A DNA stretch of 64,000 nucleotides from an uncultured Bacteroidales bacterium (GTDB taxonomy: Bacteria; Bacteroidota; Bacteroidia; Bacteroidales; Paludibacteraceae). Position 1 is the first letter of the stretch. Each line of letters opens with the position of its first letter. Positions 14,551-62,957 of the stretch are shown here, piece by piece. The DNA lies in NCBI GenBank assembly GCA_902799705.1, contig CADCBP010000003.1, positions 62,001 through 126,000 on the forward strand, written 5' to 3'. Below the pieces are notes generated by a model that saw only the letters and a list, made by a program, of their open reading frames with translations, was not told the DNA's origin and did no database searches. Position numbers and translations under genes: made by a program.

Positions 14551-14590
14551 TGGAGATTGGACGATTGAAGATTTGAGATTTGAGATTTGA
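14551..14590. repeat. Heptamer repeat GATTTGA/GATTGGA between valS and uvrA
   Basis: GATTGGA, CGATTGA, then GATTTGA three times. The probable uvrA start codon (TTG at 14587) is formed by the last copy. Confidence 0.85.
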
Positions 14591-17223
14591 GAAACGAAGG
14601 CAACATAGAGGTTATTGGAGCGCGGGTGCATAACCTGAAGAACATCAGCGTGTCCATTCCCCGAAAACGACTGACGGTCATCACCGGCCTCAGTGGTTCG
14701 GGTAAGTCCTCTTTGGCCTTCGACACCATCTTCGCTGAAGGCCAACGCCGGTACATGGAGACCTTCTCGTCCTACGCACGAGGTTTTATCGGCCAGATGC
14801 AACGCCCCGATGTCGATAAAATCACCGGTCTCAGTCCAGTCATTTCCATCGATCAGAAGACCACTTCCAAGAATCCCCGCTCCACCGTCGGGACAATTAC
14901 CGAGGTGTATGATTTTCTGCGACTGCTGTTCGCCAGAGCTGCAACACCCTATTCGCACCTGTCCGGCAAGCCGATGATCAAATTCACGGACGAGCAGATC
15001 TTAGACCTGATTGTACGGGAATATGCCGGAAAAAAGATCTTGATATTGGCGCCGTTGGTGAAGGGACGCAAAGGACATTACAAGGAACTATTCGAAACCA
15101 TCCGCAAGAAAGGCTTTGTGCATGTGCGGGTGGACGGCGAAGTACAAGAAATCACTCAAGGCATGAAACTCGACCGCTACAAGATGCATGACATCGAAGT
15201 GGTGGTGGACCGGTTGAAGGTGAAAAACCTCTCCCCGACCCTCCCCTCAAGGGAGGGAGATGAGATAGACTTGCGCCGACTGCGGCAGTCCGTTGACAAG
15301 GCCATGACGCAAGGCAACGGCATTATGATGATTGTAGAAAGCGACCAGCCTTCAGAAGTCCGTTTCCTGAGCCGGAACCTGATGTGCCCGGAGACGGGCT
15401 TGAGTTATGCCGAACCCGCTCCGCATACTTTCTCTTTCAACAGCCCGTCAGGTTGGTGTCCGTGCTGCAAAGGACTTGGAAAGGTGAAAGGTGAAAGGTT
15501 AAAGGATGAAGGATTATTGGACGAGATAGACGAAGCCATCCGGGAAGACAACTGGTGGGAGCGTTTGTCGGAGTTCACAGAAGAGACAGAAGAATCGGAC
15601 AAGGACGAATGGGTCGAGTGTCCGGAATGTCACGGTTTGCGGTTAAGCAAAGAAGCCCGGAGTTATAAGTTCGGTCGATATACTATCTCCGACCTCGCGA
15701 ACATGGATATTGACGAGTTGATTAAAGTGCTGTCGGAGTACTCGGAAGACCCGGATTTATCCGATAAGCAGAAGGCTATCGCCGAACCCATCGTAAAGGA
15801 GATCATTGGTCGATTGAAGTTCATGCAGTCCGTAGGACTAAGTTATCTGAGCCTGAACCGCAGTAGCGAGAGTCTGTCGGGCGGTGAGAGCCAACGTATC
15901 CGTTTGGCCACACAGATCGGCAGCCGGCTGGTGAATGTACTCTATATCCTTGACGAGCCGAGTATCGGCCTGCACCAACGCGATAACCAACGCCTCATCA
16001 CCAGTCTGAAAGAGTTACGCGACATGAATAACTCCGTCATCGTAGTTGAACATGACGAGCAGATCATGCGCGAGGCGGACTGGATAGTCGATATAGGTCC
16101 CAAAGCAGGCCGTTTGGGCGGAAACGTGCTGTTTAGCGGCACGCCGGAAGATCTGCTCAAGACCGACACTCTCACCGCACAGTATTTAAAAGGAGAGCGA
16201 GCTGTAACGGATACAAATCCAAACTCTCAAATCTCAGATATCAAATCTCAAATAACCCTTACCGGCTGCACAGGCAACAACCTCAAGAACGTGACGGCGC
16301 GCATTCCGTTAGGCAAGATGGTGTGTGTGACGGGCGTGAGCGGTAGCGGCAAGAGTTCGCTTATCAACCAGACGCTCTACCCAATCCTCAGCCAGCGTTT
16401 CTACCGCAGCAAGACACAGCCGCTTCCATACAAGAACATCGAAGGCATCGAGCATATAGACAAGGTCATCAATGTCGATCAAGCACCTATAGGCAGAACG
16501 CCCCGTTCCAATCCGGCGACCTACACCAATGTGTTCAATGACATCCGCGAACTGTTTGCGCAGTTACCGGAAGCGAAGATACGCGGATGGAAGGCCGGCA
16601 GGTTCTCATTCAACGCCAAAGGTGGTCGATGCGAGGAATGCGCAGGTAACGGCTATAAGACGATACAGATGCATTTCATGCCGGACGTATATGTGCCGTG
16701 CGAAGTATGCGGCGGACAACGGTACAACCGCGAGACCTTGGAAGTGCGGTTCAAAGGAAAGAATATAGCGGATGTGTTGGATATGACGGTGAACCAAGCC
16801 GTGGAATTCTTCGAGGCGCAACCGACTATCTTACGGAAGATCAAAACCATACAGGACGTAGGACTTGGTTACATCAAACTCGGTCAGTCCTCTACCAGTC
16901 TCTCCGGAGGAGAGAGCCAGCGTATCAAATTAGCGACGGAACTGTCCAGACCTTCTACGGGTAAGACCTTATATATCCTTGACGAACCCACCACAGGCCT
17001 GCATTTCGAGGATATCCGCGTGCTGATCAATGTGTTGCGCCGACTGGTGGACAAAGGCAATACCGTGGTCATCATCGAGCATAACACAGACGTCATCCGC
17101 GCCTGCGACTGGATCATCGATTTAGGACCGGAAGGAGGACGAGGAGGCGGACAGATCGTTGCGGAAGGAACCATTGAGGATATACGCCGTAATAAAAAAA
17201 GTATTACAGGGAAGTATATTTAG
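14587..17223 (+). CDS. uvrA: Excinuclease ABC subunit A
   Basis: 878 residues. Damage-recognition ATPase of nucleotide excision repair. Walker A GLSGSGKSS near 35 and GVSGSGKSS near 583; ABC signatures LSGGESQR near 428 and 773; UvrB-binding domain (ILAPLVKGRKGHYKELFETI); zinc modules CPCCKG/CPECHG and CEECAG/CEVCGG. The TTG start lies in a heptamer repeat; no better start is seen. Three in-frame low-complexity inserts occur: 15239-15257 (LSPTLPSREGD), 15480-15514 (KVKGERLKDEG) and 16227-16254 (SQISDIKSQI). All fall in linkers rather than in catalytic motifs. Confidence 0.96.
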   Translation: MRNEGNIEVIGARVHNLKNISVSIPRKRLTVITGLSGSGKSSLAFDTIFAEGQRRYMETFSSYARGFIGQMQRPDVDKITGLSPVISIDQKTTSKNPRSTVGTITEVYDFLRLLFARAATPYSHLSGKPMIKFTDEQILDLIVREYAGKKILILAPLVKGRKGHYKELFETIRKKGFVHVRVDGEVQEITQGMKLDRYKMHDIEVVVDRLKVKNLSPTLPSREGDEIDLRRLRQSVDKAMTQGNGIMMIVESDQPSEVRFLSRNLMCPETGLSYAEPAPHTFSFNSPSGWCPCCKGLGKVKGERLKDEGLLDEIDEAIREDNWWERLSEFTEETEESDKDEWVECPECHGLRLSKEARSYKFGRYTISDLANMDIDELIKVLSEYSEDPDLSDKQKAIAEPIVKEIIGRLKFMQSVGLSYLSLNRSSESLSGGESQRIRLATQIGSRLVNVLYILDEPSIGLHQRDNQRLITSLKELRDMNNSVIVVEHDEQIMREADWIVDIGPKAGRLGGNVLFSGTPEDLLKTDTLTAQYLKGERAVTDTNPNSQISDIKSQITLTGCTGNNLKNVTARIPLGKMVCVTGVSGSGKSSLINQTLYPILSQRFYRSKTQPLPYKNIEGIEHIDKVINVDQAPIGRTPRSNPATYTNVFNDIRELFAQLPEAKIRGWKAGRFSFNAKGGRCEECAGNGYKTIQMHFMPDVYVPCEVCGGQRYNRETLEVRFKGKNIADVLDMTVNQAVEFFEAQPTILRKIKTIQDVGLGYIKLGQSSTSLSGGESQRIKLATELSRPSTGKTLYILDEPTTGLHFEDIRVLINVLRRLVDKGNTVVIIEHNTDVIRACDWIIDLGPEGGRGGGQIVAEGTIEDIRRNKKSITGKYI
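15239..15257. repeat. Palindrome CCCTCCC/GGGAGGG inside uvrA, in frame
   Basis: CCCTCCC, loop CTCAA, GGGAGGG: a 7-bp perfect stem coding a loop in the UvrB-binding/insert region. Confidence 0.7.
15480..15514. repeat. Heptamer repeat AAAGGTG inside uvrA, in frame
   Basis: AAAGGTG, AAAGGTG, AAAGGTT, AAAGGAT, GAAGGAT: five units of exactly 7, coding a Lys/Glu-rich linker after the zinc knuckle. Confidence 0.85.
16227..16254. repeat. Heptamer repeat TCAAATC inside uvrA, in frame
   Basis: TCAAATC, TCAGATA, TCAAATC, TCAAATA. It is the reverse complement of the GATTTGA family found in spacers at 14551, 17222, 19656 and 30507. It codes SQISDIKSQI between the two ATPase halves. Confidence 0.88.
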
Positions 17224-17249
17224 GATTTAGGATTTAGGATTTGAGATTT
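17222..17249. repeat. Heptamer repeat AGGATTT between uvrA and the antiporter gene
   Basis: AGGATTT three times, then GAGATTT, followed directly by the antiporter ATG. The uvrA stop codon shares two bases with the first copy. Confidence 0.85.
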
Positions 17250-19112
17250 ATGATAACAAACCCGCTTGCGATTATTGCGCTTGTGTTAGCGACGATCTTA
17301 TTGGTACCTATGGCGTGCCGTAAGATCCGTATTCCCAGTATTGTGGGGTTTATCATTGTCGGCATCCTGGTCGGCCCTTACGGTTTCGGACTGATACAAA
17401 GCGGCACGTCTATCCAGACGCTGGGCAAGATCGGCATGCTATATATCATGTTACAGGCCGGTATCGAAGTGGATGTCAATGATTTCCGGCAGCAACGCAA
17501 TAATGCCATCGTATTCGGTTTGTACTCTTTTATCTTCCCGTTTGTATTGGGTGTTGCGACAAGTCTGTTGTTGGGTTTCAACTGGGTGACGAGTGCATTG
17601 CTGGGTGCGATGTACGGCAGTCACACCCTGATGACCTATCCTATCATCAGTCGGTACGGGATACAAAAGAACCCGGCGGCGAATATCGCTATAGGCGGTA
17701 CTATGCTAACCATCACCCTCTCGCTTCTCGTACTCGCATATCTCAAGAGCCATTATGTCTATACGGACGACCTGAGTTTCTGGCGGCAAGCCTCCCGTAT
17801 CGCTATCACCCTGCTGAACATTCTGATCTTCTTCCCGTTCATAGCCCAACGGTTCTTCAAACGCTGGTCAGATGCAACGAGTGGTTTTCTGATTGTGATG
17901 ACGCTGATGGTTTTCTCCGCATGGATGGCCGAATGGGCGGGGCTTGAAGGTATTCTGGGTGCCTTCGTATGCGGCGCGGCTCTCAACAGATTAGTCCCCA
18001 ACCTCAGCCCGGTCATGCAACGAATCAACTTCGTGGGCAACAACCTCTTCGTGCCGCTGTTCCTGTTAGGTGTCGGCATGTTGATTGATGTATCGCTCCT
18101 TTGGAGCGGATGGACGACTATTATCATCGCATTGGTGATGATAGCGACGAAACTGGCCGGCAAATGGATTGCCTCCTGGTTAGCGCAAATCAGTTTCGGC
18201 TTGCAGCGTCCGGAACGTCTGTTGATGTTCGGTTTGACGCATGCGACCGCCGCCGGCACCTTGGCCATCGTCACCATCGGCTACGAGACTGGAATCTTCA
18301 ATGCCGAGATCCTCAATGCGGCAGTGCTGATGATACTCGTGCTTTGCACTTCGGCATCGTTTGTGACGGAGTACGCAGCGAAGATTCTTGCTTTGCAAGA
18401 ACAGGCACGACTGGAAGCCGACAAAACGGATAACAGCTGGTTGCTGCTGACAGTTGCCGAGAACAGACATTATGAGTTACGCGAACTGAGTGAGTTAGCC
18501 GAACTGCACACACCTGATTTCTCCAACGAGTCCGACTGGTCCGATGCCCAACAGTTGGTGAACAGTCAGCGTAAGGCGGCTATCATCTATCATCCCGCCC
18601 AGCCAATCAATACCATTTCGCGTATTCTTGTAGCCGTTCCGCGTTATGCAGAGAAGGAGCACGATTTCATCTCGTGCTTCGGATTGATACGTCGTCTGAG
18701 CAGCCAAATCGGTGCGCGCGTGATCTTCTTTACCAATGAGGACACGCAGAAGACCATTCAGGCGCTTTGTCGCCGCAAAGGTAAGTTCCTGCGGGCATCG
18801 TACAGAGAGATGGAAGACTGGGAAGATGTGCTGATGATTGCCAAGCAGATGGCTCCGGACGACATGATTGTTATGGTTAATGCGCGGCCCTCCACCCCAT
18901 CCTTCAACCCGCTCTTCGAGCAGATACCGGACATGTTAGGACGATTCTTCAGCAATCACAGTTACATGATTGTCTATCCGGAACAAGAAACAGGAAACGA
19001 TATACCTGACTTATTGACGGGCGACACAACACAGGCCAGCAAGACATGGTCTGTCGTCAGCGCGGTCAAACAGCGGATTCTTCAGCTGATGGAGAAACGT
19101 CAGCGCCTCTGA
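17250..19112 (+). CDS. Cation/proton antiporter, CPA2 family
   Basis: 620 residues. The N-terminal 380 or so residues form a Na+/H+ exchanger-type domain of about 12 membrane segments (for example PSIVGFIIVGILVGPYGFGL and ITLSLLVLAYL). The cytoplasmic C-terminal part has a possible universal-stress-protein-like fold (ISRILVAVPRYAEKEHD...IGARVIFFTNE). It would exchange Na+ or K+ for protons at the inner membrane. I start it at the ATG at 17250, directly after a heptamer repeat; a TTG 9 bases upstream lies in the repeat. Its 3' end overlaps the exosortase gene by 47 bases, tail to tail. Confidence 0.93.
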   Translation: MITNPLAIIALVLATILLVPMACRKIRIPSIVGFIIVGILVGPYGFGLIQSGTSIQTLGKIGMLYIMLQAGIEVDVNDFRQQRNNAIVFGLYSFIFPFVLGVATSLLLGFNWVTSALLGAMYGSHTLMTYPIISRYGIQKNPAANIAIGGTMLTITLSLLVLAYLKSHYVYTDDLSFWRQASRIAITLLNILIFFPFIAQRFFKRWSDATSGFLIVMTLMVFSAWMAEWAGLEGILGAFVCGAALNRLVPNLSPVMQRINFVGNNLFVPLFLLGVGMLIDVSLLWSGWTTIIIALVMIATKLAGKWIASWLAQISFGLQRPERLLMFGLTHATAAGTLAIVTIGYETGIFNAEILNAAVLMILVLCTSASFVTEYAAKILALQEQARLEADKTDNSWLLLTVAENRHYELRELSELAELHTPDFSNESDWSDAQQLVNSQRKAAIIYHPAQPINTISRILVAVPRYAEKEHDFISCFGLIRRLSSQIGARVIFFTNEDTQKTIQALCRRKGKFLRASYREMEDWEDVLMIAKQMAPDDMIVMVNARPSTPSFNPLFEQIPDMLGRFFSNHSYMIVYPEQETGNDIPDLLTGDTTQASKTWSVVSAVKQRILQLMEKRQRL

Positions 19113-19692
19113 TGCCTTCGACGAACCAAACCCACAGGCCGAAGAGCATCGCATAGAAGAGGTATTTGAAAATATAGTCGTGCAGCAGATGGAACCATTC
19201 CGGATGATGCTCGATGAAGAGTGTGACGAGGAAGATCCGAAGGATATTAAAAAGATAACAGCACACCCATCCAAAGGGGATAAACCATAGTTTCTTCAGC
19301 CATAACGCTTTTCTGGAAGTCGCAGTAGTGGACTTGACAGTCAGGATGAGGCAGAGCCATATAAAACTTTGCTTTAACGCCGTACAACCCCATATAATCC
19401 TGGTGCCTGTTCCGTAAGCAAAACGGATGGTATGCGCGTCGGACATGTAGGCTGTGTCGCGGAAAAGGGACACCAACCAATAGACCACCGAGGCAATGTG
19501 ACAGGCCATGAATTCAAAAGGCGCAGTGATGTCCAGTCCGAACCAAGTCACGCTGTCTCCGTTCTCGTCCCCTACCATCGTCCATTTCCATGCGTAATTT
19601 GCCACAAGGAGCGTCACCATAAAGATGATAACATCGGAATACGGCTTGAGCCGTAATTGGAGATTGGATATTTGAGATTGGAGATTGGACAT
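19066..19692 (-). CDS. Exosortase/archaeosortase family membrane protein
   Basis: 208 residues, several membrane segments. The three catalytic positions of exosortases are recognisable: Cys in WGCTALKQS, Arg in FNILRIFLV and His in LLHDYIFKY. These are transpeptidase-like enzymes that cleave sorted proteins at the inner membrane. The first residues (SNLQSQISNLQL) are coded entirely by a heptamer repeat that supplies the start codon. The real core begins near Leu13, so the N-terminus was built or rebuilt by the repeat. It follows tsaD directly (0 bases between). No substrate with a sorting tail of the exosortase kind is in the window. Confidence 0.82.
   Translation of the reverse strand: MSNLQSQISNLQLRLKPYSDVIIFMVTLLVANYAWKWTMVGDENGDSVTWFGLDITAPFEFMACHIASVVYWLVSLFRDTAYMSDAHTIRFAYGTGTRIIWGCTALKQSFIWLCLILTVKSTTATSRKALWLKKLWFIPFGWVCCYLFNILRIFLVTLFIEHHPEWFHLLHDYIFKYLFYAMLFGLWVWFVEGIRGADVSPSAEESAV
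19656..19692. repeat. Heptamer repeat AGATTGG forming the N-terminus of the exosortase gene
   Basis: AGATTGG, ATATTTG, AGATTGG, AGATTGG, ACATTTA. The start codon lies at its edge, one base from the tsaD stop. Confidence 0.85.
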
Positions 19693-20739
19693 TTAGATTT
19701 GTGTTTTGGCATACGGAACCTCATCTATGGCGCAGAAATCGCGGTCAAGATACTTGAAATAGCCCGCCTGGCAAACCATGGCGGCATTATCGGTCGTAAA
19801 CGAGAATGGAGGGATAAAGACCTCCCAATGGTATTTCTTCCCATAGTCCACGAAGGCCTGACGCAATGCACTGTTGGCACTCACGCCGCCGGCGACAGCC
19901 ACCTGGCTGACACCTAAGTCTTTGGCGGCTTTCTTGAGTTTGCGCATGAGGATATCCACTACCGTCGCTTGCAGAGAGGCACACATATCTTCGCGCAAGT
20001 GCGGTACCCGTTCCGCCAACTCGTCTATTGTCTCCACGCCATGCGCCTTGAGCATGTCACGCAACGTATAGAGGAAAGAGGTCTTGAGACCGGAGAAGGA
20101 GTAGTCGTAGTTCGGGATATTGGGTTTGGCAAAAGGATACTTGCCCGCATCGCCTTCTTTAGCGAGCTTGTCTATCCACGGTCCTCCCGGATAAGGCAGC
20201 CCTAAGACCTTGGCACATTTATCGAAGGCTTCGCCCGCTGCATCATCTATCGTCTGGCCGATGATCTCCATATTATTATACGCGCGCACCAGCACTATCT
20301 GGCTGTTACCGCCGGACACCAACAGGCAGAGAAACGGGAACGTGGGATGCTTCAGTCCAGTACCGTCTTCCACAAAATGCGCCAAGACATGTCCCTGAAG
20401 ATGGTTCACATCAATAATCGGGATATTAAGCGCGAGGGCGAGACCTTTCGCGAAAGAAGTGCCGACGAGCAATGAACCCAACAGGCCCGGACCGCGGGTA
20501 AAAGCGATCGCCGAGAGGTCTTCTTTAGTCACTCCGGCACGTTTGAGCGCGGTGTCCACCACCGGCAGGATATTCTGCTGATGGGCGCGGCTCGCCAATT
20601 CCGGTACCACTCCGCCATACTCCTCATGCACTTTCTGCGAGGCGATGACATTACTCCGCAACACTCCGTCCACGATGACCGCAGAAGAGGTGTCGTCGCA
20701 ACTGGATTCGATAGCTAATATGACTACTGGTTTATCCAT
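19693..20739 (-). CDS. tsaD: tRNA N6-adenosine threonylcarbamoyltransferase
   Basis: About 348 residues from the Met at 20739 (MDKPVVILAIESSCDDTSS), which is the conserved family start. An upstream extension in the open frame would be coded by the promoter and is rejected. Metal-binding HLQGH is present, as are SGGNSQIVLV and the C-terminal GGVSANSALR and TTDNAAM. It transfers threonylcarbamoyl to A37 of ANN-decoding tRNAs, with TsaB and TsaE. The leader is about 14 nt. The promoter shares its -33 element with the divergent gene at 20814. Confidence 0.97.
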   Translation of the reverse strand: MDKPVVILAIESSCDDTSSAVIVDGVLRSNVIASQKVHEEYGGVVPELASRAHQQNILPVVDTALKRAGVTKEDLSAIAFTRGPGLLGSLLVGTSFAKGLALALNIPIIDVNHLQGHVLAHFVEDGTGLKHPTFPFLCLLVSGGNSQIVLVRAYNNMEIIGQTIDDAAGEAFDKCAKVLGLPYPGGPWIDKLAKEGDAGKYPFAKPNIPNYDYSFSGLKTSFLYTLRDMLKAHGVETIDELAERVPHLREDMCASLQATVVDILMRKLKKAAKDLGVSQVAVAGGVSANSALRQAFVDYGKKYHWEVFIPPFSFTTDNAAMVCQAGYFKYLDRDFCAIDEVPYAKTQI

Positions 20740-20748
20740 TTTCTCAAA

Positions 20749-20812
20749 AACGGCTGCAAAGGTACGAAAATATTTGCATATATGCAAAAAAAAGTGTAAC
20801 TTTGCAGCCGTT
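20749..20812. promoter_or_regulatory. Palindromic divergent promoter shared by tsaD (-) and the 20814 gene (+)
   Basis: The centre TTTGCATATATGCAAA (20773-20788) is a perfect palindrome and supplies the TTG -33 box for both strands. -7 boxes are TAACTTTG (20797-20804, plus) and TACCTTTG (20764-20757, minus), each 23 nt from its TTG. The outer parts AACGGCTGCAAA (20749-20760) and TTTGCAGCCGTT (20801-20812) are also inverted copies, so the two start regions are mirror images. Confidence 0.92.
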
Positions 20813-20813
20813 T

Positions 20814-22082: not shown

Positions 22083-22122
22083 GATGAAAATCCAGAAAAT
22101 CCAGAAAAAATGACACAAATAT

Positions 22123-22153: not shown

Positions 22154-22156
22154 CAC

Positions 22157-25983: not shown

Positions 25984-26060
25984 TGACGTTGGGGTGATCT
26001 TGGGCTGAGCAGCCTTTGATCACCCTTTCAGCACCCATTGAGCACCCTTTGGGATAAGGT
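25984..26060. repeat. Seven phased 11-mers, TGAnCACCCTT type
   Basis: TGACGTTGGGG, TGATCTTGGGC, TGAGCAGCCTT, TGATCACCCTT, TCAGCACCCAT, TGAGCACCCTT, TGGGATAAGGT. Six of seven start TGA or TCA. Non-coding, 45 nt downstream of orphan promoter 2. Confidence 0.8.
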
Positions 26061-30115: not shown

Positions 30116-31111
30116 ACTATCGGGGGCGTTATTCAGGATATGAATAACGTCCTCGAGCATTTCTTCGGGGTGTACTACCCCACGCTCCCAGAAATTATTT
30201 GCTCCGCCAGGCTTGATTTGCTTGCGCCAATTATAGACACGTCCTGACTGATAGGCCTTAAACCACGTGTGTTTCTCGTCCATCTCTGCTAGTTCTGCCA
30301 TGTTGTTACCGCCAGCACCAACCCATACGTCGGCGTCATGAAAATAACGCAGCGTCTCTTCGATAGTCAACGGAATAGATGTCTCGCGTTCGTCATCATA
30401 GAATGGATAGTCCGCGCCCGCATCCTTGAAAAGGTAAGCCAAGTAGTTCTTACCGGAAGGGACATACCATGTACCACGGAAATTATTGCCACTCATAATT
30501 TTCGTAGATTTGAGATTTGAGATTTGAGATTTGAGATTTATATATTGTGTTTCCACATTTTGAAAGATGGAATCGGCTTCATGCAGTTTGCCGGTAAGGG
30601 CTCCTAGGACACGGATCCACTCAGCGCGCGCCAGAGGTGTACCTTCCTGCCATTCGTTGATATAGATGGTGCGTACGCCAAGTTTCTCCAAACGAGTGGC
30701 CTCCAGATTGTCATACTGACCATAGTTGACGGCTAATAAAGCGTCCAATCCCGCTTGGAGGGTACGCTCAGCACTTGGCTTCATGGAGTCCCCGAGGTCT
30801 ATCTCATCGCCTTTGACGGGCGTGTAGATGAGTTCGGGATTGCATACAGCTACCAAGCAATCCATTGTCTCCAATGCATAGAGAAATCCCACCTGCACGG
30901 TGCTCATTGTTCCAAGTCGATGCAACGGTTCTTGGACACAAATGCGCTGGTAAGGATGGAACACTTCTACCACTATTCCGGTGTCCGTCTCCGTGATTTG
31001 AAAGCCCGTGGCATACTTATTTCCTACAGGAATACTACTCTGCTCTACGGACTGTTTGGCACAGCCCGCAAAGCAAAGCGTTATCAAAAAAATAATTATC
31101 GTATTTCTCAT
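30086..31111 (-). CDS. BtuF/FecB-like ABC substrate-binding lipoprotein
   Basis: 341 residues from the Met at 31111 (MRNTIIIFLITLCFAGCAKQ, lipobox FAGC). Upstream codons of the same frame are the promoter, so an earlier start is excluded. Periplasmic-binding fold of the cobalamin/iron-siderophore class: PYQRICVQEP, the segment with TMSTVQVGFLYALETMDCLV, and a second lobe with DADVWVGAGGNN. It would hand corrinoid or Fe-chelate to an inner-membrane ABC transporter not in the window. An in-frame heptamer repeat (30507-30540) codes LKSQISNLKS in the interlobe region. The leader is about 5 nt. Confidence 0.88.
   Translation of the reverse strand: MRNTIIIFLITLCFAGCAKQSVEQSSIPVGNKYATGFQITETDTGIVVEVFHPYQRICVQEPLHRLGTMSTVQVGFLYALETMDCLVAVCNPELIYTPVKGDEIDLGDSMKPSAERTLQAGLDALLAVNYGQYDNLEATRLEKLGVRTIYINEWQEGTPLARAEWIRVLGALTGKLHEADSIFQNVETQYINLKSQISNLKSTKIMSGNNFRGTWYVPSGKNYLAYLFKDAGADYPFYDDERETSIPLTIEETLRYFHDADVWVGAGGNNMAELAEMDEKHTWFKAYQSGRVYNWRKQIKPGGANNFWERGVVHPEEMLEDVIHILNNAPDSLLHFASHLK
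30507..30540. repeat. Heptamer repeat GATTTGA inside the BtuF-like gene, in frame
   Basis: GATTTGA four times perfectly, then GATTTA. The gene is read on the minus strand as TCAAATC. Confidence 0.9.
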
Positions 31112-44511: not shown

Positions 44512-47136
44512 TTATGCTTTGTTATCATTCTCTTTGTTCTGCGACTCCTCGTCATCTTCGTCATGATGGTAATAGTAATATGAACGATAAGCCTTATCGT
44601 CTTTCACAAGTTTGCCGTATATCTTACCATATAACTTACCATAACGGCGCGATCTGGAGTTGTCTCCACCGTAGCCGTAGCCATAACCGCCGTAACCACC
44701 ATAGCCAAAGTGACCGTAACCATAGCCGCCATAGCCGCCGTAGCCGTAGCCATAGCCGGAGCCATAGGAGTGACGACCTGCAGTCGGAATATCCGAAAGA
44801 ACCAATTGAATCTTTTCCGGGTTATCCACAACATCCGCTATTTGCTCCAAAGTCTGCTTGCAGAAGGATTTATTAGTCTGCATACAACGGATGACATATA
44901 GACAAAGGTCGCTATACTCAATGATTGCATACGCATCGGGCACCAAACCGATAGGCGAGGTATCGATAATGATGAAGTCATATATCTTACGCGCTTCTTC
45001 AATGGTCTTTGCCAACTTGTCTGAGTGCACTAATTCCCCCGGATTGGGCGGTATGGTACCGGCACGAACGAAATCGAAACCGAACGGTGTATTACGCACA
45101 TAGATATCTTCCAGTTTCGCATCTCCGATCAGATAGTTCGAAGCACCGGGTCCATTCTCCAGACCTAACTTCGTATGAATATTCGGTTTACGAAGGTCGA
45201 GGTCCACGAGTAAGGTCTTTTTTCCTGTCATTGCGTACAGGGCCGCGAGGTTGGTGGAGAGGAAAGTCTTACCATCACCGGACTCGGTAGAGGTAACACA
45301 AATCACCATCTTATCTTTGCGGCGCAGGACAAATTCCATACGTGTTCGGATGGCACGTAACATCTCCGCATAACTGGATCGAGGCGATGCACGTACCAGC
45401 GTCGGGTTCTGACTCTTGGCGTGACGAAGTGTACCAATGAGGCGGAAGTATTTGAGTTTGAGAACATCCTTCGGCGAACGAATCTTGTTATTAAGCAATT
45501 CGCTGAGGATGATAAGAATCATCGGTATAAGGAAGCCTATGATGAGATAGGTGGTAGTGGTTTTCTTCTTTGCTTTCGCATTCATGATAGCCGTAGTACG
45601 CGCCTTGTCCATGATGGAGTTATCCGGAGTGTTGGAAGCCTTCTGAATCTCGGCTTCGGCTCGCTTCTGGAGGAAGAAAGTATAGTAGTTATCGTCGATG
45701 CGGTAGTTACGCTCAATAGCTACCATCTGCAACTCTTTCTGAGGCAACTGCTTGATTGAGCGCTCTACCTCTTGGTAGCGATTTGCCAAATCAGCTTTCT
45801 CTATCTCCAGCGAAGCACGCATAGAGGTTACAACCTCTTCTATAGCTGTCTTTACATTCTCGATATCCTTGGTGTATTTCGCGTAGTACACGTTCTTCTC
45901 AGTCAATTCACCGCGCTGGATACGCAAGTCGTTGAGTTGTTGAACCAATCCTACCAACATGGGTTCATTCACGCCCATAGTCGTCGGTGCGATAACAGCA
46001 TCTTTTTCAATATTATCATGGATATATTTGATAAGATAATCGAAATAGGTCTCACGCAAACGAAGTTCCATGGACTGTTGGTCGTAAGCTGCGATGCGAC
46101 TCATCAACTGGCCAGCATAGGAGTTTACATCCACAAACTTGTTCTCCTGACGGAAATCGGTCATGGCGCCTTCGCTCACCTGCAACGAGGACTGCAGGTT
46201 ATCCAACTGCTCGTTGATAAAGCGGATGGAGTTCTCCGCTACTTCGTTCTTCTGTTCGAGGTTTTGGAGTAAGTATATTTTCGCCAACTTGTCAATGAAT
46301 TCGCAATCTCGTTGCGGCGTCTCGCTTACGAGGGAGAGCGCCAGCACAGTTGATCCTTCAGTAACAAATGACAATTGCAGACGACTCATAAACTCGTCCA
46401 CCAACGACTCATGACTGCGGAAACGGAAATAGATTTTTCCGCTATTCGTCATCAGTTCCGTCGGGAAGATCGTTCCGTCAAAATACGGGCAGTGAATCGG
46501 CTCTCCGTAATGAGCATCCATCTCCAAATAAAAATTCTCGTTGGTGGAAGAAAGATGCATCGTACCGTCGTGGTTGAAGTTCACTTGATAAAGGATTTCA
46601 TACGCACGCGGGTCCAGACGGGTAGCCTCCACGATGATTGGTGTCTGGCGATAGAGTTGACGGGTCTTGAAGCGTCCTTGCGTGATATATTCCACATTCA
46701 GGAACGGCAGCGAGTCCACTACTCTACTCATCAGGTCATACGAACCGAGCATAATCATTTGGTTGTTCACGTTCTTGTATCCCGCGTCCACGCCGAAACC
46801 GCTCATCAGAGCTGAAGCCGAACCTCCGTAGGTTCCGCTCTCTTTGATGACGATGGTGCCCTGCGAATAATACGTTGGTATCCAACGCCGGTTCTTGAGC
46901 ATCGATAAACCTAATGCAATCACAAGTGCAATCACAAACAGATACCAATAATGCAGGAATGTGAACAACCACTCCAACGGATTAAAATTCAAACCATTGT
47001 CATCATCATCATTCTGTTGGGGATCTTGTTGATAATACTGCTGATTACCGCCTTGATAATAATAGGCGTTGTTGCCTCCCGGGTTATAGTATCGGTTGTT
47101 ACCGCCCGGTGTGTAATATTGACTGTTTTTATCCAT
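44512..47136 (-). CDS. Wzc-like polysaccharide co-polymerase and tyrosine autokinase
   Basis: 874 residues. The N-terminus is Tyr/Asn/Gly-rich (QYYTPGGNNRYYNPGG...). Two membrane segments flank a periplasmic Wzz domain with coiled coils (about 260-470). The cytoplasmic BY-kinase has Walker A SGDGKTF near 617 and Walker A' LLVDLDLRKPN. It ends in a Gly/Tyr-rich stretch near 789-818 (YGSGYGYGYGGYGGYGYG) and a Tyr cluster YRSYYYYHH, the expected autophosphorylation targets. It controls chain length and export of capsule or exopolysaccharide together with the two Wza-like proteins upstream. Confidence 0.95.
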   Translation of the reverse strand: MDKNSQYYTPGGNNRYYNPGGNNAYYYQGGNQQYYQQDPQQNDDDDNGLNFNPLEWLFTFLHYWYLFVIALVIALGLSMLKNRRWIPTYYSQGTIVIKESGTYGGSASALMSGFGVDAGYKNVNNQMIMLGSYDLMSRVVDSLPFLNVEYITQGRFKTRQLYRQTPIIVEATRLDPRAYEILYQVNFNHDGTMHLSSTNENFYLEMDAHYGEPIHCPYFDGTIFPTELMTNSGKIYFRFRSHESLVDEFMSRLQLSFVTEGSTVLALSLVSETPQRDCEFIDKLAKIYLLQNLEQKNEVAENSIRFINEQLDNLQSSLQVSEGAMTDFRQENKFVDVNSYAGQLMSRIAAYDQQSMELRLRETYFDYLIKYIHDNIEKDAVIAPTTMGVNEPMLVGLVQQLNDLRIQRGELTEKNVYYAKYTKDIENVKTAIEEVVTSMRASLEIEKADLANRYQEVERSIKQLPQKELQMVAIERNYRIDDNYYTFFLQKRAEAEIQKASNTPDNSIMDKARTTAIMNAKAKKKTTTTYLIIGFLIPMILIILSELLNNKIRSPKDVLKLKYFRLIGTLRHAKSQNPTLVRASPRSSYAEMLRAIRTRMEFVLRRKDKMVICVTSTESGDGKTFLSTNLAALYAMTGKKTLLVDLDLRKPNIHTKLGLENGPGASNYLIGDAKLEDIYVRNTPFGFDFVRAGTIPPNPGELVHSDKLAKTIEEARKIYDFIIIDTSPIGLVPDAYAIIEYSDLCLYVIRCMQTNKSFCKQTLEQIADVVDNPEKIQLVLSDIPTAGRHSYGSGYGYGYGGYGGYGYGHFGYGGYGGYGYGYGGDNSRSRRYGKLYGKIYGKLVKDDKAYRSYYYYHHDEDDEESQNKENDNKA

Positions 47137-50477: not shown

Positions 50478-50494
50478 AAAAGCGTATCAGGTTT

Positions 50495-50549
50495 GATGCT
50501 TATTAAATGCTTATTAAATGCTTATTAAATGCTGGTTTTATGCTGTACA
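50495..50549. repeat. Five tandem 11-mers, AATGCTTATTA type, between fcl and gmd
   Basis: GATGCTTATTA, AATGCTTATTA (twice), AATGCTGGTTT, TATGCTGTACA. Inside an operon, unlike the other 11-mer arrays. Confidence 0.88.
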
Positions 50550-50553: not shown

Positions 50554-51657
50554 TTATTTTACTATACCTTTCTCGAGGTACTCAGCAGCATTGAAGTGTT
50601 CACGTGTCACTTTCTGCATGTCGTGTCTTACCATCAGTTCGACGAGTTGTTCAAAACTGGTCTTCTGCGGGTTCCAGCCTAGCTCTTTTCTGGCCTTGGC
50701 GGGATCACCGAGCAAGTTTACCACATCCGTCGGGCGATAGAAATCCGGGCTAACAGCCACAACGACATCGCCCTTTGTACATCGTACTTTGTCACTTTGT
50801 ACCTTTTCCACTATTCCCTTCTCGTCCACGCCTTTTCCTTCCCAACGCAGTTCTATTCCGGCATGGTGGAAAGCAAGGGTGGCAAACTCGCGCACGGTGT
50901 GTTGTATGCCCGTAGCAATGACGAAGTCCTCAGGCGTCTCATGCTGAAGAATGAGCCACATACACTCCACATAATCCTTGGCATAACCCCAATCACGCAG
51001 CGAATCGAGGTTGCCCAGATACAGGCACTCCTGTAAGCCTTGTGCAATACGTGCCGCGGCCAGCGTGATCTTACGGGTTACAAAGGTCTCGCCGCGGCGC
51101 TCGGACTCATGGTTAAACAGAATTCCCGAACAGCAGAACATGTCGTACGCCTCACGGTATTCCTTGATAATCCAGTAGCCATAAAGCTTGGCTACGGCGT
51201 AAGGGCTATAGGGGTGGAAAGGAGTGTTCTCATTCTGCGGCACTTCCTCTACTTTTCCGTACAACTCGGACGTTGAGGCCTGATAAATGCGGCAGTTTTT
51301 TTCCAAATGGTTCGTGCGCACCGCCTCCAACACGCGCAATACGCCAACGGCGTCCACGTCCGCGGTAAACTCCGGTGCATCGAACGAAACCTGTACGTGA
51401 CTCTGCGCTGCAAGATTATAAATCTCATCCGGCTGCACTTTGCCTACCAGTTTCACTAATGACATCGAGTCACTCATATCCGCGTAATGCAAGTGGAAAT
51501 GCGGTGTTCCCTCCAGATGAGCAATACGCTCACGGAAGTCCACAGAACTACGACGGATAATGCCGTGTACCTCGTATCCTTTTTCCAACAAAAACTCCGA
51601 AAGATAACTTCCGTCCTGTCCTGTTACACCTGTAATTAATGCTGTCTTTTGCTTCAT
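50554..51657 (-). CDS. gmd: GDP-mannose 4,6-dehydratase
   Basis: 367 residues. NADP-binding [15 protein letters not shown], active-site SELYGKVEE and [10 protein letters not shown] (Tyr-x-x-x-Lys), and VECMWLILQ. It makes GDP-4-keto-6-deoxy-D-mannose, the substrate of Fcl. First gene of the capsule operon; promoter at 51720-51750. An in-frame heptamer repeat (50773-50807) codes [14 protein letters not shown], in a region that is shorter in other Gmd proteins as I recall them. Confidence 0.97.
50773..50807. repeat. Heptamer repeat CTTTGTA/ACTTTGT inside gmd, in frame
   Basis: CTTTGTA, CATCGTA, CTTTGTC, ACTTTGT, ACCTTTT: period 7. Confidence 0.8.
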
Positions 51658-55410: not shown

Positions 55411-57366
55411 TTATTTCGTTATGCGTTCTACTGCCCGCAAAATGGGTTCAATAGTCGGTGCTTCTCCAACTGCCTGAATGAGCCATTCTTTCGGTGTCAG
55501 GCGACCAAGACGGTAAATACGCATGTATTCAATCGCGAAGTCTTTCGGGGTCTTGCATTGCGCCAAGTGCTCCTCCAACTGATATTGGACGATGTGCCCG
55601 AGGGGATAATTCGGCAGGTACATAGGCGCATTCACCATGTGGCTATACACTGCTAAGAGAATGCAGTCGTGCTCGCCCAATACCGGTTCGTAATACGCGT
55701 TCCATACCTCTTTGGCAATCGCCTGTGTTGCCTCGCAGAGCTCCTTCGCGGTAGCCTTCGGGTGCTCGTATATCCAGCGCCACATACGCATATCCACAAG
55801 GCTCACACCCATGATCTCGTACATCGACCAGAACTGGTCTAAGACTTCGTCAGAACTGATTTCTGAATGCTGACTTCTGACTGCTCCCGGTAACAACTGC
55901 AGGTCCCGTTGTTGCCAAAGGAACGCACTGGCCTCGGTATAAGCCGTATTGGGCACACCGGAGAGCATATAATAGTCAATGTAGTACATGTCCAGAACCT
56001 GCTCCACACAATGCCCGAACTCATGCACGGCGATATTATACCCCTTGTAATCCATGCCGGCCGCAGGAATACGAGTGCGCAGCCGGGCATCCTCTTTGCG
56101 GCCTAAACAGGGCCAAGCATGTCCTGAACCGCGTGCTGGTTCTACTACAATACGATGAGCTATATTACGGGCGTCTTCGCTATAGAAGCCCATCTGGGTC
56201 AGCAGTCTCCACATGTCGGCGGCAAAGGCGTTGGCGTCTGGATAGAGCTTGCGCGTCTCGGCAGACAACGCATCTTCATTCAGGGCTGCGCGGGATTTGA
56301 AACCATCATACCAGATATCATACGGACGGAGTTCCCTACCCAATCGTTCGCGGATGACTGCGGCCACCTTGGCTACTTGAGGAGACCCCACCAACGCACG
56401 GAACAGACTGTCTAATTCTTCGGCAGGAATCTCCACCCCTTCTTCGAAGTTACGGATAATACCCGTTGGAGCCGTTGGACAATATGGGTCTTCCGCAAAA
56501 TAGGCTTGTGCTATCTCCAATATCCGTTCATAACGCGTGTAGGGTTCTGACGGTTGATCATCAATAACGGAAGGCTTCCATACAAAATCCCTGCCGTTGA
56601 CCGCTGCCTGCGGAATGGTCTGATCAACAATACGTTGCATCACACGATAAATCATTTCCTGTTTTTCTTGTCCGCCCTCAGTGCCGTAAAGCGCTTTGAG
56701 TTCGTCTCGCAGGTTCCAGTGACTCAGCAAAATCTTGTCTTCCGGCCATAACGCACGGTCATCCTCTGTACGCAGGTTACCCATGTAGATATTGTAGTCG
56801 GCTATGTAGTTCTCCGCATTTGCGAGCGACTGAGCCATGCGCGTGTTGACGGACGCAGGGACACGGGTTGTAAACACGTCTCCCATGCGGGCAAACGCCC
56901 ACTCCTGACGACTCCAACTCTTGCCCAATGTATTCTTCTCTTCCAGCGTATAATGGGGAAAATTCAAGATGGTGACAAATGCGAGTTTGTTTGCGAACAT
57001 ATCGTCCGAGAAATGCGCCAAGGGGCTGTAACCCGATAATATCCAATCCGGTGTCTGCGGTTCGGTAGCATTCGTCAGTTGGGTCGGACGAAGCAGTTCC
57101 ACCGTCAGCAGGTCCGCCGACTGATAGATATTCTCGAAAGCCTTACTTAACGACTCAAAGAGCGCTATGCGCTCGCTATCGGTTTTACAAGTGTTGTCCG
57201 CAATAAACTGTTCCAACTCTTCTTGTGTACCGTCTGTAGGCGTCCAAAGGGCGCGCACTTGTTGTTCTCCACGCGAATATTCCATTGTCTCTGTCTTTTT
57301 AGACGTGCATGACGTCAAGCCTAAGATGGCTGCAAACGCCATGTAAAATAATGTGTTATGTCTCAT
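55411..57366 (-). CDS. Secreted zinc metallopeptidase lipoprotein (HExxH, M3-like)
   Basis: 651 residues. Lipoprotein signal (ILGLTSCTSK). The zinc motif HEFGHCVEQ lies near 445 and the third ligand is probably Glu in YTEASAFLWQ near 474, giving a gluzincin of the M3/M2 type. The rest is helical. It would cleave peptides in the periplasm. Second gene of an operon with the esterase upstream (6 bases). A heptamer repeat (55856-55883) codes AVRSQHSEISS in a helix-helix turn after the active site. Confidence 0.85.
   Translation of the reverse strand: MRHNTLFYMAFAAILGLTSCTSKKTETMEYSRGEQQVRALWTPTDGTQEELEQFIADNTCKTDSERIALFESLSKAFENIYQSADLLTVELLRPTQLTNATEPQTPDWILSGYSPLAHFSDDMFANKLAFVTILNFPHYTLEEKNTLGKSWSRQEWAFARMGDVFTTRVPASVNTRMAQSLANAENYIADYNIYMGNLRTEDDRALWPEDKILLSHWNLRDELKALYGTEGGQEKQEMIYRVMQRIVDQTIPQAAVNGRDFVWKPSVIDDQPSEPYTRYERILEIAQAYFAEDPYCPTAPTGIIRNFEEGVEIPAEELDSLFRALVGSPQVAKVAAVIRERLGRELRPYDIWYDGFKSRAALNEDALSAETRKLYPDANAFAADMWRLLTQMGFYSEDARNIAHRIVVEPARGSGHAWPCLGRKEDARLRTRIPAAGMDYKGYNIAVHEFGHCVEQVLDMYYIDYYMLSGVPNTAYTEASAFLWQQRDLQLLPGAVRSQHSEISSDEVLDQFWSMYEIMGVSLVDMRMWRWIYEHPKATAKELCEATQAIAKEVWNAYYEPVLGEHDCILLAVYSHMVNAPMYLPNYPLGHIVQYQLEEHLAQCKTPKDFAIEYMRIYRLGRLTPKEWLIQAVGEAPTIEPILRAVERITK
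55856..55883. repeat. Heptamer repeat CTGACTT inside the metallopeptidase gene, in frame
   Basis: CTGATTT, CTGAATG, CTGACTT, CTGACTG: four units of exactly 7. Confidence 0.8.
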
Positions 57367-57372
57367 ATCATA

Positions 57373-58254: not shown

Positions 58255-58257
58255 CAA

Positions 58258-58290
58258 ACAATTTCTTAGCCACAAGGGCAACGATTAATG
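58258..58290 (-). promoter_or_regulatory. Fragment resembling the 5' part of a cobalamin riboswitch
   Basis: Minus strand: AATCGTTGCCCTTGTGGCTA followed by AGAAAT, against AATCGTGCCCTTGAGGCTA and AGAAAT at the start of the btuB element. The rest of the aptamer is absent; the esterase start follows. It may be a truncated riboswitch. Confidence 0.5.
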
Positions 58291-58309
58291 TTAAACATTC
58301 TTTGCGGCG

Positions 58310-58340
58310 CAAAATTACAAATAAAAAATGACATACGCAA
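58310..58340 (-). promoter_or_regulatory. Promoter of the esterase-metallopeptidase operon
   Basis: Minus strand: TAATTTTG at 58317-58310 and TTG beginning at 58340 (TTGCGTATGTCA), spacing 23. Confidence 0.87.
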
Positions 58341-58400
58341 GCCTATGCCGTTAATTTTGCATTTTTGTCACATATTTGCTGCCGCATTCTTTTTAGAAAA

Positions 58401-58455
58401 TCTTTAGTTCTTATTTAGTTCTTATTTAGTTGTTATTTAGTTCATATTTGGTTCT
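58401..58455. repeat. Five tandem 11-mers, TATTTAGTTCT type
   Basis: TCTTTAGTTCT, TATTTAGTTCT, TATTTAGTTGT, TATTTAGTTCA, TATTTGGTTCT. With the two promoters around it, this is all I see in the gene-free stretch 58255-58608. Confidence 0.9.
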
Positions 58456-58510
58456 TTGCCTAATTATCGCGATACGAATACACCATGATTAAGTCCCGTA
58501 AAACCAACTG

Positions 58511-58541
58511 CAAAGGTACAACTTTTTTTTGATATGTGTAA
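58511..58541 (-). promoter_or_regulatory. Weak promoter with no gene directly downstream (orphan promoter 3)
   Basis: Minus strand: TACCTTTG at 58518-58511 with TTA in place of TTG at 58541, spacing 23. It reads into the 11-mers at 58455-58401 and then the esterase promoter. Confidence 0.6.
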
Positions 58542-58567
58542 ATTTTGAAGGAAAAATGTACGCACAT

Positions 58568-58598
58568 TTGCAAATTTGAAAAATTTGTAGTAATTTTG
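58568..58598 (+). promoter_or_regulatory. Promoter of the DUF3667-like/PagL-like gene pair
   Basis: TTG at 58568 (TTTGCAAATTTG) and TAATTTTG at 58591-58598, spacing 23. The ATG at 58609 is about 7 nt after the predicted transcription start. Confidence 0.88.
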
Positions 58599-58608
58599 CA
58601 GGCGGATT

Positions 58609-59427
58609 ATGAAAAAAGGCAAGATACATAAATGGTGGCAGGCGCTGCGGGAGCGGATGAAAACGCTGAAGGAACGGATGAAAGCGTTGCGGGCGAAGCA
58701 GACAGCGGGATACGGTGAAGTGGAAGCAAACAGCAAGCGCATCACTATGGAGAGTGTGACGTCGAATTTTCTCGAAGTATGGGGATTCGGCAACAAGAAT
58801 ATATTTGTGACCATAGGCCACCTGTTTTGGCGTCCCGGATACATGATGCGGGACTATTTAGAAGGCCGCCGCGGACGATTGATGCAACCTGTTATGATGT
58901 TAGTAGTGCTAACCTTGGGCCTGATGCTGTTGGGGAAAATACTACATGTGGAGATTATGCCCCGCGAATCAGCAACCTTGCATTTCTCGGAAGCGCACGC
59001 TCAATTAGACAGCACGAATCCCGACGATGCTAAAACACTTCAGCTCTTAAATTCCGTAGAGCAGTTCTCTATGTATATGGAGAACATACGTCGATGGGAA
59101 GAAGAACATCCGGATTTCGGGCTGCTCTTTAAGTTTTCGATTACTATGTTGCTCATGTGGTTGCTGTTCCGTAAAGTGGGAGATAAAACCTATAATTTCG
59201 CAGAGATCATGACGGTTGTATGCTATGCGATATGCCAGTTACAGGTGATTTCCATTGTATGGTTACTCTGCACGGCGTGGTGGCATCCACAGATAAGTTT
59301 TAATCCCTTTATCTTCCCGTTCTACATCGCTCACATCGTGTTTTTCATCGATTTCCAGCAGCTATTCCAACGCCGCTGGTGGTCCACACTTTGGCGCACG
59401 ATTGTGGCACTATTCTTTGTGTTCTGA
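58609..59427 (+). CDS. DUF3667-like membrane protein
   Basis: 272 residues. A basic N-terminus (KKGKIHKWWQALRERMKTLK) precedes NIFVTIGHLFWRPGYMMRDY and LEGRRGRLMQPVMMLVVL, the pattern of DUF3667 proteins, although the N-terminal zinc knuckle of that family is missing. Four membrane segments follow. Function unknown. It precedes the PagL-like gene by one base, so the pair is co-expressed. Confidence 0.85.
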   Translation: MKKGKIHKWWQALRERMKTLKERMKALRAKQTAGYGEVEANSKRITMESVTSNFLEVWGFGNKNIFVTIGHLFWRPGYMMRDYLEGRRGRLMQPVMMLVVLTLGLMLLGKILHVEIMPRESATLHFSEAHAQLDSTNPDDAKTLQLLNSVEQFSMYMENIRRWEEEHPDFGLLFKFSITMLLMWLLFRKVGDKTYNFAEIMTVVCYAICQLQVISIVWLLCTAWWHPQISFNPFIFPFYIAHIVFFIDFQQLFQRRWWSTLWRTIVALFFVF

Positions 59428-59428
59428 T

Positions 59429-61971: not shown

Positions 61972-61994
61972 TTGAACATTTACAATTTAGTCGT

Positions 61995-62957
61995 TTATAA
62001 CTCCTCCTTAATGAGATAATCATTACGGCTCTGTGAGTTGCGGATAATGAGTTCTGCCAGGAAGCCTGCGAGAAAAAGCATACAACCGAGAATCATCATA
62101 AGTATTGCAATGTGAAAATAAGGGTTCACACCCACCAGCATCGCCGGCACATGGTTCGACAGAGCATAGAGTTTCATAGCGCCCACAACGATTGCGGCTA
62201 TGAATCCTATGAAAAACATCAAACTACCAACCAGCCCGAAGAAATGCATGGGCTGTTTGCCGAATTTATTGAGGAACCAAAGCGTCATGAGGTCAAGGTA
62301 ACCGTTTACAAAGCGGTTTATGCCGAATTTAGACGTTCCGAATTCACGCTTGCGATGCTGCACCACTTTCTCGCCTATTTTGTTAAACCCTGCGTTCTTC
62401 GCCAGATACGGGATATATCGATGCATTTCGGAGAACACTTCGATATTTTTCACAACATCCTGGCGATAAGCCTTCAGGCCGCAGTTCATGTCATGGAGCT
62501 GAATACCTGTTACGCGACGGGCCGTTGCATTAAAGAGCTTGGACGGCAGATTTTTGGTAAGGGCATTGTCATAACGTTTCTGTTTCCATCCGCTGACGAG
62601 GTCATACCCCTCTTCGGTAATCATGCGATAGAGTTCCGGTATCTCGTCCGGCGAGTCCTGAAGGTCAGCATCCATAGTGATGACCACATTTCCCTGCGCA
62701 GCCTTGAAACCGCAATACAACGCCGCGGATTTTCCGTAATTACGACGGAAACATATACCTCTGATGACTTTGTCATCATCTGAGAATTGAGATTTGAGAT
62801 TGGAAATTACTTCCCAGGAATTATCGGTAGAACCGTCATTGACGAAGATTACTTCGTATGAAAATTTGTTCTCCTTCATCACTCGTGCTATCCACTCATA
62901 GAGTTTCGGCAGCGACTCCGCCTCGTTGTACAGAGGCACGATAATCGATATGTCCAT
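61995..62957 (-). CDS. Family 2 glycosyltransferase, DPM/GtrB-like
   Basis: 320 residues from the Met at 62957 (MDISIIVPLYNEAESLPKLY). The open frame upstream covers the promoter and is dropped. Asp motifs VNDGST and MDADLQDSPDE, then a C-terminal pair of membrane segments (FFGLVGSLMFFIGFIAAIVV and IAILMMILGCMLFLAGFLAE), as in undecaprenyl-phosphate sugar transferases. An in-frame heptamer repeat (62784-62804) codes NLKSQFSD in a loop of the GT-A fold. Confidence 0.94.
   Translation of the reverse strand: MDISIIVPLYNEAESLPKLYEWIARVMKENKFSYEVIFVNDGSTDNSWEVISNLKSQFSDDDKVIRGICFRRNYGKSAALYCGFKAAQGNVVITMDADLQDSPDEIPELYRMITEEGYDLVSGWKQKRYDNALTKNLPSKLFNATARRVTGIQLHDMNCGLKAYRQDVVKNIEVFSEMHRYIPYLAKNAGFNKIGEKVVQHRKREFGTSKFGINRFVNGYLDLMTLWFLNKFGKQPMHFFGLVGSLMFFIGFIAAIVVGAMKLYALSNHVPAMLVGVNPYFHIAILMMILGCMLFLAGFLAELIIRNSQSRNDYLIKEEL
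62784..62804. repeat. Heptamer repeat GATTTGA inside the glycosyltransferase gene, in frame
   Basis: GAATTGA, GATTTGA, GATTGGA: three units, 21 bases, so the insert is exactly seven codons. Confidence 0.82.

Follow-up and report, generated by a model that had tools for sequence, protein, structure and literature searches.

Heptad-periodic repeats in spacers and protein-coding genes of an uncultured Bacteroidales bacterium and its congeners

Introduction

How does a bacterial genome come to carry tandem repeats of a 7-nucleotide unit, whose length is not a multiple of three, inside conserved genes? The question arises from a stretch of 64,000 nucleotides (the window; G000:C3:62001-126000, on contig CADCBP010000003.1) from an uncultured Bacteroidales bacterium of the family Paludibacteraceae. 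Its source genome, G000, is a 2.3-Mb draft that is 94% complete. An original prediction, made from the sequence of the window, held that heptamer arrays occur in its spacers and, in frame, inside at least a dozen genes such as uvrA and hypB. We compared these arrays with those of congeners (the other G-numbers; L-numbers are retrieved loci), using one genome per species. It seems fairly probable that the arrays belong to families of interspersed repeats that are heptad-periodic and very short (about 25-50 bp), and that are copied and then filtered by protein-level selection. The preference for period 7, the dispersal of one compound family, and the turnover at fixed sites are direct observations.

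Abundance of period-7 arrays

Exact runs of at least 12 consecutive matches at a fixed lag occur in the window six times at period 7, twice at period 11, and never at periods 2-6 or 8. Tandem Repeats Finder recovers most of the period-7 runs, and a looser rule (at least 15 of 21 matches at lag 7) gives 11 period-7 clusters. In total, the window has eleven period-7 arrays and one irregular relative (in gmd), with ten genic sites in nine genes, which is fewer than the dozen or more genes proposed. Most of the named hosts were confirmed: hypB, uvrA (twice), the exosortase gene, the BtuF-like gene, the gene at 36815, btuB, the metallopeptidase, and the glycosyltransferase. Apart from the exosortase gene, whose start codon is in the array, these genes hold their arrays in frame. 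The exception is gmd, which carries an irregular element with unit spacing 8-7-7 and not a plain heptamer. Looser arrays had also been proposed in an oxidoreductase (6729-9602) and a 1334-residue protein (31308-35312), but neither has a cluster by the looser rule, and the proposed range of 14551-62804 misses the array in hypB at 10006-10049.

We extended the period-7 scan to 464 kb of G000 (the window and 20 further stretches) with a stricter rule of at least 17 of 21 matches. This gave 66 clusters, compared to none in one dinucleotide-preserving shuffle per stretch, so the predicted heptamer arrays in spacers and genes are real and far above chance. The dominant words of these 66 arrays are of 34 distinct kinds. 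At other periods, the same 464 kb had 23 clusters at period 8, 15 at period 11, and 3 each at periods 9 and 10. A 460-kb sample of the congener G015 had 136 period-7 arrays. There were no period-7 clusters in 100 kb of E. coli K-12, which is from another phylum.

Many of the arrays lie well inside open reading frames (ORFs), as scored on a crude set of ORFs of at least 150 amino acids: in G000, this is true of 36 of the 66 period-7 arrays, and in G015 of 64 of the 136. The corresponding numbers for periods 8, 9, and 12 are 8, 2, and 3 in G000 and 7, 4, and 5 in G015. The frame-friendly periods 9 and 12 are rarer inside ORFs than period 7 is, which suggests to us that the period is set by whatever gives rise to the arrays rather than by selection.

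The phenomenon extends past the genus. Around uvrA, we found 34 period-7 arrays in 187 kb of near loci, 22 in 262 kb of middle loci, and 16 in 210 kb of far loci (L371-L395), so that loci beyond the genus also hold them. Triplets of the word GATTKGA were present in one of 16 genomes from other families of the order, in a word search confined to Bacteroidales.

We also considered a strand bias. One word family had 23 forward and no reverse occurrences in G000, but congeners were mixed and uvrA site 2 was on the opposite strand, so we dropped this idea. The reversed-pattern control of that word-family scan also had matches in several congeners and in G000 (including 6 in G006, 5 in G016, and 2 in G000). 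Since the reversed words themselves occur as heptamers, the word-pattern count is not a measure of excess.

Among the periods, 7, 8, and 11 are represented and 13 hardly is. The period-11 arrays in the window are at 10683-10740, 26006-26051, 50490-50544, and 58387-58457. Arrays of this period are mostly outside the longer ORFs; those well inside number 1 of 15 in one sample and 3 of 17 in the other.

Turnover at fixed linker sites

We aligned array sites with orthologues from species of the same genus, at about 70-85% DNA identity. The TonB-dependent receptor (btuB-like, with a Plug domain) has a CCAATCT array at 41622-41670 on the minus strand, which encodes TQISNLQSPISNP. In five of six nearer congeners, the same site has a period-7 array (judged by eye) in other words: CCAATCA in G006, CAACAGC-type in G004 and G002, AAAAATC in G003, and AATCAGC in G015. 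In the sixth, G018, the linker is short. A protein alignment of five congeners at a greater distance shows other linkers, one of them long.

Other genes are similar. In the BtuF-like binding protein (Peripla_BP_2), a CAAATCT array of about 5 units at 30499-30548 (minus strand; INLKSQISNLKST) corresponds to a CCAATCT array in G003, a degenerate array in G006, another word in G015, a palindromic element in G002, and a longer repeat in G004 and G018. HypB (TIGR00073) has an ATTGTGA/AATTCAC array at 10006-10049 (minus strand; SNLQFTMHNSQ). We located hypB in three of the seven congeners searched, and its site holds a 29-mer (described below) in G015 and a different repeat in G004 and G002. The family-2 glycosyltransferase (Glycos_transf_2) has a CAAATCT array at 62776-62811 (minus strand; ISNLKSQFSDD); its site holds the 29-mer in G015, GGTTACG-type units in G003, and a short or non-periodic linker in three congeners.

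Two of the host proteins have no match in Pfam. The first, a peptidase named for its HEFGH motif, has an AGTCAGA-type array at 55854-55890 (minus strand; from the lag-7 scan and the alignment) that replaces the native linker: it occupies the place of about ten native residues for a net gain of 3 nt, and it is absent from all five congeners compared. The second is the surface protein at 36815, whose name comes from the original prediction. Its array (36885-36925) precedes a C-terminal tail, and this tail is absent from the three congeners that we aligned.

Eight sites outside the window, each compared in one to five congeners, show similar turnover, with an array that is common to some species and different in others. 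In a PepO-like gene, the linker is filled in G000 and G015 and short in four congeners. In the ligase LigA, an ACAAAGG array at linker 1 is common to G000, G002, and G004, whereas G006 has GGTTACG units there, G015 has the 29-mer, and G003 has nothing; the contents of linker 2 differ in all six species and are palindromic in G000 and G002. In G006, both LigA sites have GGTTACG-type units. LigA is essential in the bacteria that have been studied, and as it carries two array sites, we rejected the idea that only nonessential genes are hosts.

Relative to the shortest aligned congener, the net changes in seven comparisons were +24, +24, +33, +27, +18, +15, and +3 nt. None of these is divisible by 7, so native bases must have been replaced as well, and the idea of frame-neutral heptamer inserts is too simple. 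The alignments support the view that the array segments are insertions or replacements and not old protein sequence, as had been predicted: same-genus orthologues are empty or have other repeats, and in the order's other families, both uvrA linkers differ from those of the window. The same segments were not found at the same sites in distant Bacteroidales in our orthologue alignments.

The two uvrA linkers

Site 1 of uvrA is an AAAGGTG array at 15471-15519 (plus strand; KVKGERLKDEGLL). Site 2, just ahead of the second ATPase half, is a CAAATCT array at 16215-16256 (plus strand; NSQISDIKSQIT). We kept 80 of 581 uvrA loci, and 60 of these (L316-L375, mostly gut and rumen metagenome-assembled genomes named Paludibacteraceae or Bacteroidales) together with the window gave 61 orthologues. 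With a threshold of at least 11 of 14 matches at lag 7, site 1 is periodic in 19 of 57 orthologues (four with a 59-residue site 1 were set aside) and site 2 in 11 of 61. If codons are shuffled, the mean for the same score is 0.10 at site 1 and 0.13 at site 2; other lags gave 0-2. Random blocks from the core of uvrA reached a cutoff of 12 of 14 in 2 of 1220 cases. On the uvrA tree, the same array family appears at scattered positions (judged by eye).

All of the arrays had been predicted to lie in linkers. In an AlphaFold model of UvrA (built from 19 sequences, with a mean predicted local distance difference test score, or pLDDT, of 75), site 2 is mostly coil at low confidence (mean pLDDT 48 for block 541-550). 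Site 1 is in a stretch that is also modelled with low confidence (block pLDDT 49-65), where short helices are weakly predicted. For the other genes, the placement in linkers is inferred from the alignments.

Some arrays are composites of two heptamer arrays, head to head (TTAGCTG... and then ...AGCCAAT). In G015, these are at L307:840-912, L312:12738-12814, and L151:4731-4790, and one of them is in uvrA site 2. Also, uvrA in the window has a short palindromic element in frame at 15226-15268, which encodes NLSPTLPSREGDE; similar palindromes occur in linker 2 of LigA in both G000 and G002, and G002 has another in BtuF.

A dispersed 29-mer with irregular spacing

The compound family is represented by the 29-mer ACAAAGGGACAATGTACAAGGTACAAAGG, whose units are spaced 8-7-7. 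With up to 3 mismatches, there are 22 copies in G015, 10 each in G009 and G018, and 5 in G000. At least one copy is present in 10 of 31 genomes, and a reversed control had none in all 31. In G015, hypB and the glycosyltransferase have identical copies, and with at most one mismatch the element is in hypB, the glycosyltransferase, and both LigA sites. We retrieved 20 of the 22 places in G015, and their flanks are unrelated; no target-site duplication was noticed by eye in these 20 flanks. In 18 of the 20 copies (the exceptions are L285 and L289), VQxDxVQxTK is the product of the longest sense frame that is open, as it is in 11 of the 12 copies with at least 150 open codons. For a few copies, such as L292, an antisense frame is longer than the sense frame.

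The irregular spacing is itself conserved. In a pattern-free scan of the 460 kb of G015, 10 of 13 unit chains had spacing 8-7-7, and 8-8-7-7, 7-7-7, and 7-7 occurred once each. On the one strand that was scanned, the exact four-core pattern in reverse (7-7-8) came from this family only, twice per genome (36885-36925 in the window is one such case), and mixed spacings of other kinds were single occurrences in other words. The element at 36885-36925 (minus strand; QVPSDQVPSTK in the surface protein) has ACCAAG for ACAAAG in all four positions, with the spacing kept. Another variant, partly decayed, lies inside gmd (TIGR01472) at 50752-50811 on the minus strand. Because the irregular element recurs in 22 places and in 10 of 13 chains, local slippage alone does not account for the arrays; this holds for the 8-7-7 family and may not for every word.

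Arrays also resemble others in their own genome. With equal numbers of donors (means of 50 draws), matches to the own genome versus the other genome of the pair were 88 versus 40 for G015 and 36 versus 24 for G000; with unequal donors, these were 101 versus 24 and 30 versus 29. G015 clearly has a repertoire of its own, and in G000 the signal for one is weak. Inverted arms are rare, at 1 of 79 and 6 of 148 clusters (3 of 300 for random 70-mers).

Protein context

The frame that is used within ORFs tends to be hydrophilic: the mean grand average of hydropathicity (GRAVY) is -0.57 and -0.69 in the two samples, versus -0.13 and 0.37 for other open frames. Arrays also occur at the N-terminus of 21 ORFs (7 in G000 and 14 in G015), and by eye about 14 of these look like signal peptides. 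Four of the apparent signal peptides (L296:11406-11513, L296:12871-12977, L302:11322-11401, and L016:17851-17976; identified by eye) are apparently made of two arrays, with a basic stretch from AAAGGTG in sense followed by hydrophobic units from CAATTTT in antisense, as in KVKGERLKVKGLLLFFFLSIFNFQFSTC. This pattern fits arrival in either orientation, followed by sorting by protein context. In the window, the exosortase-like gene (exosortase/archaeosortase family TIGR04178) has its start codon within a CCAATCT-type array at 19652-19697 on the minus strand (MSNLQSQISNLQ).

Explanations for the arrays

Under our preferred reading, an existing array would serve as the template for a new copy, for example when replication or repair switches strands at a microhomology, and the copy would overwrite some native bases on arrival. 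Slippage in 7-nt steps would then extend and homogenize the array. Selection at the protein level would retain copies that are in frame and free of stop codons, which would be hydrophilic in linkers and hydrophobic in signal peptides. A benefit to the host is unnecessary to this explanation, and our data show none. More tentatively, it is possible that micro-interspersed repeats with no recognized enzyme spread by templated copying in 7-nt steps, with genome-specific repertoires, and rewrite linkers and signal peptides across the proteome, even in essential genes, so that the period and the site are conserved and the sequence is not.

Several points weigh against copying and filtering. The copying step is inferred, from a comparison with a single genome per species. 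No mobilizing enzyme was identified among the two families searched (Y1_Tnp and RVT_1) in incomplete drafts. Some hosts of the 29-mer are not independent of each other, as LigA is the host at both L278 and L282, and L280, L291, and L292 have a related C-terminal tail. The own-genome signal is weak in G000, and the hydrophilic preference is modest, as the used frame is the most hydrophilic open one in 17 of 36 and 37 of 64 cases. The words at one site can be close, as homogenization of a resident array would give. Finally, the diverged flanks of L323 and L340 (described below) suggest that imported alleles may account for some of the linker swaps.

An alternative that we consider rather unlikely is that each linker received one array long ago, and that its word was changed in concert by slippage and internal conversion, with no copying between loci. 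This would suit the TonB receptor, where the words of five congeners are mutually close at the same codon site. It would also suit an orthologous site (89% protein identity) with ACAAAG-type units in G015 and ACCAAG in three of four units in G018, with the 8-7-7 spacing kept. It does not explain why the irregular element is scattered over different genes, or why the same site holds different repeats, palindromes, or nothing across congeners, and in LigA a frameshift would follow if a single 7-nt unit were added or lost.

It is more doubtful that homologous recombination between co-resident gut species carries ready-made linkers along with flanking gene sequence. L323 and L340 (94.5% identical) differ across the entire site-2 linker of uvrA, and the swap lies within a stretch of raised flank divergence; also, L324, L334, and L337 have similar site-2 composites in uvrA. 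Both this pair and L348 and L360 (92.5% identical) show a block of sequence replaced. But L348 and L360 are sharply different at site 1 while their left flanks there are almost identical, although the right flank is somewhat diverged, and recombination leaves the presence of one element in hypB, the glycosyltransferase, and LigA of a single genome (G015) unexplained.

A dedicated enzyme, either a Y1/RAYT-type transposase or a reverse transcriptase that copies a short template, might explain why the dispersed copies have unrelated flanks, but we think this improbable. Matches to Y1_Tnp are just above the cutoff in the array-bearing genomes G003, G009, and G018, and G002, G015, and G018 have matches to RVT_1. 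In contrast, there was no Y1_Tnp match above the cutoff in G000, G002, G004, G006, or G015, and no RVT_1 match in G000, G003, G004, G006, or G009 (these are incomplete drafts). Because there are array-bearing genomes without matches, neither family tracks the arrays.

Phase variation by the gain or loss of 7-bp units within reading frames, as is known for neuO of E. coli K1, is very unlikely, as the arrays of the window have few units (about 3-5), which are often imperfect, and the hosts include LigA and UvrA.

These genomes offer a natural case in which repeat DNA gives rise to new protein segments, and close species provide both the empty and the filled sites. Two questions can now be tested: what makes heptamers dominant among the longer simple repeats of bacteria, and how tiny repeats spread without a known enzyme. 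The arrays also call for caution, as linker length and some of the signal-peptide sequence in these genomes may hold little functional information.

Comparison with known repeats

Heptameric repeats are in excess in many prokaryotes, and an explanation based on polymerase steps or slippage has been proposed (Mrazek 2007, cited in PMC4679880 and PMC4692102). Known examples are GGGAATC in Xanthomonas and GGGGAYT in Nostoc (PMC4679880, PMC4692102); the uvrA orthologue L365 carries GGGAATC units. As these sources describe them, heptameric simple sequence repeats resemble our arrays in their period, their many loci, and their variation among relatives, and in our sample of the genome, too, tandem 7-nt units exceed chance. 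Unlike them, about half of our arrays are well inside ORFs, there are many words, and there is a dispersed irregular element.

TAACTGA repeats occur in Beggiatoaceae, Cyanobacteria, and five Bacteroidetes, including Paludibacter propionicigenes (PMC4679880). According to that account, these are also heptamer arrays that spread without a known mechanism, with few in ORFs; they differ in that they have one word, lie mostly ahead of start codons, and within ORFs are mainly at protein ends, whereas ours are in internal linkers of conserved proteins and in many words. With 34 words among 66 arrays, and 36 of the 66 well inside ORFs, the arrays in G000 are not a few words in mainly intergenic sequence.

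The short tandemly repeated repetitive sequences (STRRs) of filamentous cyanobacteria are tandem heptanucleotides. They were originally proposed as the nearest parallel, and the tandem heptamers do match in a comparison by description only, but the irregular compound element, mostly in one frame, is closer to Rickettsia palindromic elements. The STRR case in Calothrix, as cited in PMC4692102, comes with no mention there of in-frame linker replacement.

The Rickettsia elements, and similar repeats that are like miniature inverted-repeat transposable elements (MITEs), are reviewed as palindromes of 105-146 bp with terminal inverted repeats (PMC2229807). In that review's description, they are dispersed, in frame in conserved protein genes, and apparently tolerated, and we likewise found dispersed in-frame insertions in conserved genes. 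Unlike them, our elements are about 30-50 bp, heptad-periodic, and mostly without inverted arms; the long palindrome of a MITE, which spans about 100-200 bp and has terminal inverted repeats, is not seen in them. The in-frame palindromes in uvrA, LigA, and BtuF do resemble those of Rickettsia. The known kinds closest to our elements are heptameric simple repeats and the palindromic elements that lie in frame in Rickettsia genes.

The heptamer excess, the TAACTGA repeats in a few Bacteroidetes, and the in-frame repeats in Rickettsia genes are already known. A search of open-licence papers found none on their combination, in which dispersed, heptad-periodic elements of about 30 bp fill linkers inside conserved proteins and the sites are conserved but their content is species-specific. 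It also found none on in-frame heptamer arrays that fill internal linkers in Bacteroidales.

Other repeats in the window

Two more arrays lie partly or wholly in spacers on the plus strand. A GATTTGA array at 14556-14600 is upstream of uvrA (from the lag-7 scan and the tandem-repeat listing), and an ATTTAGG array at 17212-17256 crosses the uvrA stop codon into the spacer (from the lag-7 scan).

Segments of 58281-58615 match many places in five congeners, among the matches listed; this stretch may be a dispersed repeat or conserved regulatory sequence. Promoter-like 18-mers at 10946, 55361, and 58510, such as AAAAAAGCAGTACTTTTG and AAAAAGTTGTACCTTTGC, each occur in 4-11 places in the 464 kb of G000, and some ORFs with TTG starts begin within them. 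Lastly, there is a Tyr/Gly-rich coding repeat, not of period 7, at 44699-44767 on the minus strand. It lies near the C-terminus of an 874-residue protein that looks like a Wzc-type kinase.

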